This document shows positions 1,215 to 1,333 of a DNA stretch of 64,000 bases, piece by piece; position 1 is the stretch's first letter; every line of letters starts with the position of its first letter. The notes under the pieces are model-generated. The model saw only the letters and a program-made list of their open reading frames with translations, was not told where the DNA came from and made no database searches. Source of the DNA: Flavobacterium sp. (GTDB taxonomy: Bacteria; Bacteroidota; Bacteroidia; Flavobacteriales; Flavobacteriaceae); assembly GCA_015665265.1 (NCBI GenBank), contig JADFAM010000043.1, forward strand, positions 29,627 through 93,626. The letters are read 5' to 3'. Made by a program: the position numbers and the translations under genes.

Positions 1215-1322
1215 GCAAAAAAAAGCGACCCATCTCAGGGAAGCTTTCCATTGGTTAACAAAACCAAGACACTTTTTACGAAAGTGCCAAAACAACACAA
1301 CACGTTGCTTAAAATTAGCAAC
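1215..1322 (-). ncRNA. Candidate structured small RNA, unknown family
   Basis: Minus-strand TATATTTG -7 box at 1326-1333, then three perfect 6-bp hairpins (1304-1322, 1270-1286, 1251-1267), then a hairpin and T-run terminator (1217-1246). No ORF track entry covers it. Confidence 0.5.
1217..1246 (-). terminator. Intrinsic terminator of the candidate sRNA
   Basis: Minus strand AAGCTTCCCTGAGATGGGTCGCTTTTTTTT: outer AAGC/GCTT and inner CCC/GGG stems with a 2x2 internal loop, followed by an 8-T tract. Confidence 0.6.
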
Positions 1323-1325
1323 AGA

Positions 1326-1333
1326 CAAATATA
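1326..1333 (-). promoter_or_regulatory. Bacteroidota -7 promoter element (TATATTTG)
   Basis: Matches the TAnnTTTG consensus. TGTT lies 19 bp upstream in the -33 position. Confidence 0.5.

Follow-up and report, generated by a model that had tools for sequence, protein, structure and literature searches.

Between the DUF456 and lysS genes of the window (the whole stretch of DNA analysed, 64,000 nucleotides in length), the minus strand carries what, judged by comparison with its relatives, is a genuine non-coding RNA gene. We think it probable that its product acts in trans as a small regulatory RNA and belongs, as the lysS-linked form, to a Flavobacteriaceae-wide family; the unpaired stretch GUUGUGUUG would serve as its interaction site. 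The family is uncatalogued in Rfam and is new as a family, its general kind (bacterial small RNA) being known and its link to a tRNA gene unusual; taken as a whole, it suggests an old, widespread and uncharacterised regulator of gene expression.

The RNA gene in the window

Reading along the minus strand, the gene opens with a -7 promoter box, TATATTTG (1333–1326), matching the TAnnTTTG consensus and kept in nearly all members of the genus. By the published placement of this box at -12 to -5 (PMC9723704), the 5' end of the RNA is predicted to lie near 1321; with the T-run as its other end, this gives a small RNA of ~105 nt (1217–1321). Hairpin SL1 (GTTGCT-7-AGCAAC, 1304–1322) is seen in the fold, carries both-sides changes within the genus, and is confined to the lysS-linked form of the gene. 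It is followed by GUUGUGUUG (1293–1301), a putative seed or binding site that is invariant in our alignments A1 and A4 and unpaired in the predicted folds, and then by hairpin SLA (GGCACTTT-5-AAAGTGTC, 1268–1288; CACTTT/AAAGTG arms at 1286–1270), free in sequence but with its pairing kept, as indicated by covariation. Hairpin SLB (TTGGTT-5-AACCAA, 1251–1267), again present in the fold, has an invariant GG...CC; an AATG linker (1249–1252) then connects it to the terminator, this position reading AATG, GATG or AGTG in 138/138 copies examined. The gene ends with an intrinsic terminator, recognised from both sequence and fold: hairpin SLC plus an eight-T tail (1217–1249), in which the GC hairpin spans 1249–1220 and the eight T residues 1224–1217; both-sides changes affect its upper stem in other genera.

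The -7 box, the three hairpins and the GC hairpin with its eight T residues had all been named in the original prediction, and we find each of them in place, the three hairpins also forming part of the MFE fold. That fold (-33.6 kcal/mol) contains these three simple hairpins together with the stem of the terminator, with z = -2.7 against dinucleotide shuffles and 4 of 200 shuffles as stable; by itself, fold stability is only moderate evidence for an RNA. The window (1–64000) contains no tRNA gene and gives no match to Rfam 15 at the gathering threshold, with the Flavo-1 and 6S models among those searched, a relaxed threshold returning chance-level scores only (E about 1); this bears out the initial impression that the RNA is unlike SRP RNA, tmRNA or a TPP riboswitch. 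When the search was extended to the loci of 26 relatives, tRNAs alone were matched. The element is present as a single copy in its own genome.

Conservation, covariation and distribution

A DNA search recovers the element from 33 of the 36 genomes sampled within the genus; of 23 genomes belonging to other families of the same order, none gave a match. lysS adjoins the RNA in all 30 of the loci fetched, with DUF456 also present within the fetched stretch in 19 of them; a pattern scan of named genomes identifies the genus carrying this lysS-linked form as the Polaribacter/Tenacibaculum group. Across the genus alignment, conservation is confined to the promoter box and the RNA, and the flanks diverge. 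Pairs changed on both sides are found in SL1 (5/7) and SLA (4/6), nine in total; the alignment holds 32 both-sides cells, where shuffles give 6.9 and 0 of 500 come up to the observed number; slid versions are far lower. SLB and the terminator stem are near-constant in the genus, and because they barely vary, covariation there neither supports nor opposes them. It is the retention of the element in 33 of the 36 genomes, together with compensatory changes in two stems, that leads us to regard it as a genuine non-coding RNA; as sequence comparisons go, we consider this evidence decisive as to its reality. The suggestion of a free-standing, structured RNA of ~105 nt between DUF456 and lysS, for which a lack of conservation or covariation in relatives had been named as one refuting outcome, is supported by sequence, fold and comparison alike, the compensatory changes lying above every shuffle.

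Beyond the genus we made use of two covariance models, R1 (built from the genus) and R2 (built from diverse sequences), both of which match the RNA of the window. Matches to R1 in other genera fall into two groups: beside lysS again, or directly behind a tRNA. R2 finds the RNA in 215/301 Flavobacteriaceae genomes and 179/237 genera at E<=1e-4, a count that may include some false hits, as matches in other bacterial families begin near E = 7e-5; counted from the R2 table, 173 genomes are retained at E<=1e-5. A strict core sequence pattern is found in 91/301 family genomes, its reversal in 0; and in one large genus, probably Flavobacterium, the RNA is present in 269/301 genomes, with 0 for the reversed-pattern control. 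The name given to this genus is drawn from its large size and from the closeness of its ribosomal protein S2 to one PDB chain. Weak model matches also arise elsewhere in the order and class, in families other than the Flavobacteriaceae; at the loci inspected, GTTGTGTTG is missing and what stands behind the gene is an ordinary terminator, and these matches were therefore left out of the count. As the covariance models found no real homologue in these further families, the family looks to be confined to the Flavobacteriaceae at the search sensitivity used.

The core shared by these sequences runs, in order, through the invariant unpaired GUUGUGUUG; SLA; SLB, a GGUUU...AAACC stem in which GG...CC is kept; the linker, mostly AAUG; and a terminator whose 5' arm, opposite the T-run, is made up of purines only. 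Copies of the RNA have strong predicted folds. In a single subgroup of 14 sequences from other genera, all 6 pairs of SLA are changed on both sides, the subgroup showing 10 such pairs overall and 42 both-sides cells against 13.8 in shuffles (0/500); SLB has one both-sides change in other genera.

Gene arrangements and change of place

In most genera the RNA lies 8–65 nt behind a tRNA, in almost all cases tRNA-Asp(GTC), after a gene that, from its sequence features, we take to be DUF58, and has no promoter of its own. Direct ARAGORN calls place 62 of 100 occurrences behind tRNA-Asp, mostly at a distance of 8–63 nt, with several more recognisable by eye, and the DUF58 gene shares the locus in 57 of those 62 (e.g. 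L045, L049 and L303). Of 77 distinct tRNA-linked copies, 74 lack a TAnnTTTG box within 60 nt, and read-through is therefore the presumed source of the RNA. Some of these copies have no intervening terminator; at many other loci (L162, L171, L187, L237, L303) a full terminator hairpin stands between tRNA-Asp and the RNA, no second promoter being visible in those named, and here the RNA would need partial read-through. Our literature searches turned up no tRNA-Asp-linked flavobacterial RNA. Tandem copies are seen in L229 (1471–2206), L045, L049, L055 and L260, in several of which every copy comes with a separate tRNA-Asp; there are about four in a row in L229 and three in L260, from genome G233.

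A further, ‘seed-first’ arrangement comprises 10 promoter-driven copies in which GUUGUGUUG sits exactly at the predicted +1, beginning 5 nt after the -7 box (4-nt spacing); in one further copy the spacing is 3 nt. SL1 is absent from both the seed-first and the tRNA-linked forms. In the lysS-linked arrangement of the window, SL1 lies between promoter and seed, and the seed is consequently not at the very 5' end, a point that weighs against a 5' seed.

The group to which the window belongs carries the RNA between DUF456 and lysS, and retains the DUF58–tRNA-Asp locus without it: there, a terminator belonging to tRNA-Asp stands behind it, with no copy of the RNA, DUF58 being present in nearly all genomes (in the window's own genome the contig starts too near the tRNA to show it). 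The RNA thus occupies the tRNA-Asp site or the lysS site, which argues for a function of its own rather than that of a mere tRNA trailer; and since in the window's lineage it is found by itself, it would appear to work without tRNA-Asp. In most genera the RNA adjoins tRNA-Asp with no promoter of its own and may share its transcript; in the window's genus the two are clearly separate.

Proposed function and comparison with known RNAs

From these features we infer how the RNA might be transcribed, processed and paired with a target. In the model that we favour, interaction takes place through the unpaired GUUGUGUUG, which most likely works as a seed for pairing with a single mRNA or a small number of them. 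SLA, with its variable stem, would keep this seed apart and protect the RNA, and the part from SLB through the AAUG linker to the terminator would act as a conserved 3' module, both ending the RNA and stabilising it. Most genera would produce the RNA by read-through from tRNA-Asp and free it when the tRNA is processed; the lineage of the window would use a dedicated promoter and carry a further hairpin at the 5' end. Two observations fit such a regulator: an invariant unpaired GUUGUGUUG placed beside a stem whose sequence varies freely, and, in the window's genus, a TAnnTTTG box and intrinsic terminator that are both kept, as befits an independent gene. A broader and more tentative picture, for which we would claim no more than plausibility, has a family-wide core regulatory RNA whose output, tied in most genera to transcription of tRNA-Asp, could report growth or tRNA supply through its invariant nine-base seed; in the Polaribacter/Tenacibaculum group the gene would then have moved away from the tRNA, gaining a promoter and a protective hairpin.

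A crude search for targets in the window's own genome, with AACAACACAAC and <=1 mismatch, gives 98 matches against 97 for its reversal and so no enrichment; among 30 sites fetched, three are exact besides the gene itself, none of these near a start codon, and a few one-mismatch sites do lie near one. The lack of enrichment of the seed complement would suit an RNA that instead binds, titrates or guides a protein, as 6S and CsrB-type RNAs act by binding protein, with GUUGUGUUG and the SLB/AAUG module as the protein sites; the unpaired GUUGUGUUG and AAUG do stay invariant in more than 170 genera despite variable stems. We nevertheless judge this unlikely, given an RNA that has neither a repeated motif nor a long 6S-like bubble and that gives zero matches to the Rfam protein-binding families. 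A far smaller chance attaches to the RNA being merely the 3' trailer and terminator of tRNA-Asp, there for processing or termination. Although most copies do lie 8–65 nt behind that tRNA, some with no terminator between, many loci already have another terminator in this interval, and the tRNA-Asp of the window's lineage has its own, with the RNA elsewhere under its own promoter; we regard the idea as largely refuted. Least credible of all, and to our minds barely worth entertaining, is a short peptide encoded from the conserved AUG: each form of the linker does contain ATG or GTG, but the distance to the T-run occurs in all three phases, frame-0 stops interrupt 28/138 copies, and the products are unrelated beyond the stem-coded start. 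We accordingly rejected the linker AUG as a start codon, the phases being mixed and in-frame stops frequent, in line with the initial statement that no plausible ORF is present: there is an internal AUG, without a conserved ORF.

A different question, one of identity rather than mechanism and hence compatible with a base-pairing RNA, is whether the Flavobacterium homologue is Rfp18, or another of the Rfp RNAs of F. psychrophilum, in which case the family would be partly described already. Rfp18, which is genus-wide, strongly structured and expressed also in F. columnare, is needed for normal metalloprotease mRNA levels in F. psychrophilum, with pairing ascribed to its third stem-loop (PMC9723704). 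Compared by description only, it is the closest published candidate, the Rfp RNAs being, like ours, genus-wide and strongly structured small RNAs from the same bacterial family, and the 269/301 genomes of what is probably Flavobacterium matching that breadth; set against this, pairing through a third stem-loop differs from use of an unpaired 5' stretch, and we hold the identity to be possible but rather doubtful.

Returning to the base-pairing RNA that we favour, its nearest parallel is GibS of Bacteroides thetaiotaomicron, a free-standing Bacteroidota small RNA of 100–150 nt with hairpins, whose conserved unpaired 5' seed acts on translation starts (PMC7366714). Ours differs in being usually tRNA-linked, in having homologues found in the Flavobacteriaceae only, and in that the search described above yielded no target. 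The Flavo-1 motif (Rfam; Weinberg 2010) is likewise a structured RNA typical of Flavobacteria, but neither the window nor its relatives match that model at the gathering threshold.

The breadth of the family (~70% of the sampled genomes; 179/237 genera) and its invariant seed single this RNA out as a strong candidate core regulator. In marine, soil and freshwater habitats the Flavobacteriaceae are major polysaccharide degraders, and to our knowledge very few of their regulatory RNAs have been characterised; the covariance model of the family is directly usable for annotation. The probable origin of most copies also recalls the 3'ETS-leuZ sponge of E. coli, a spacer fragment released from a tRNA transcript, in that the present RNA would be made from such a transcript and freed by tRNA processing; in contrast to that fragment, it is a full terminated RNA of conserved structure that can live elsewhere under its own promoter. 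As the same RNA occurs naturally in tRNA-linked and in promoter-driven genes, the importance of tRNA linkage to the function of a small RNA can be tested directly.
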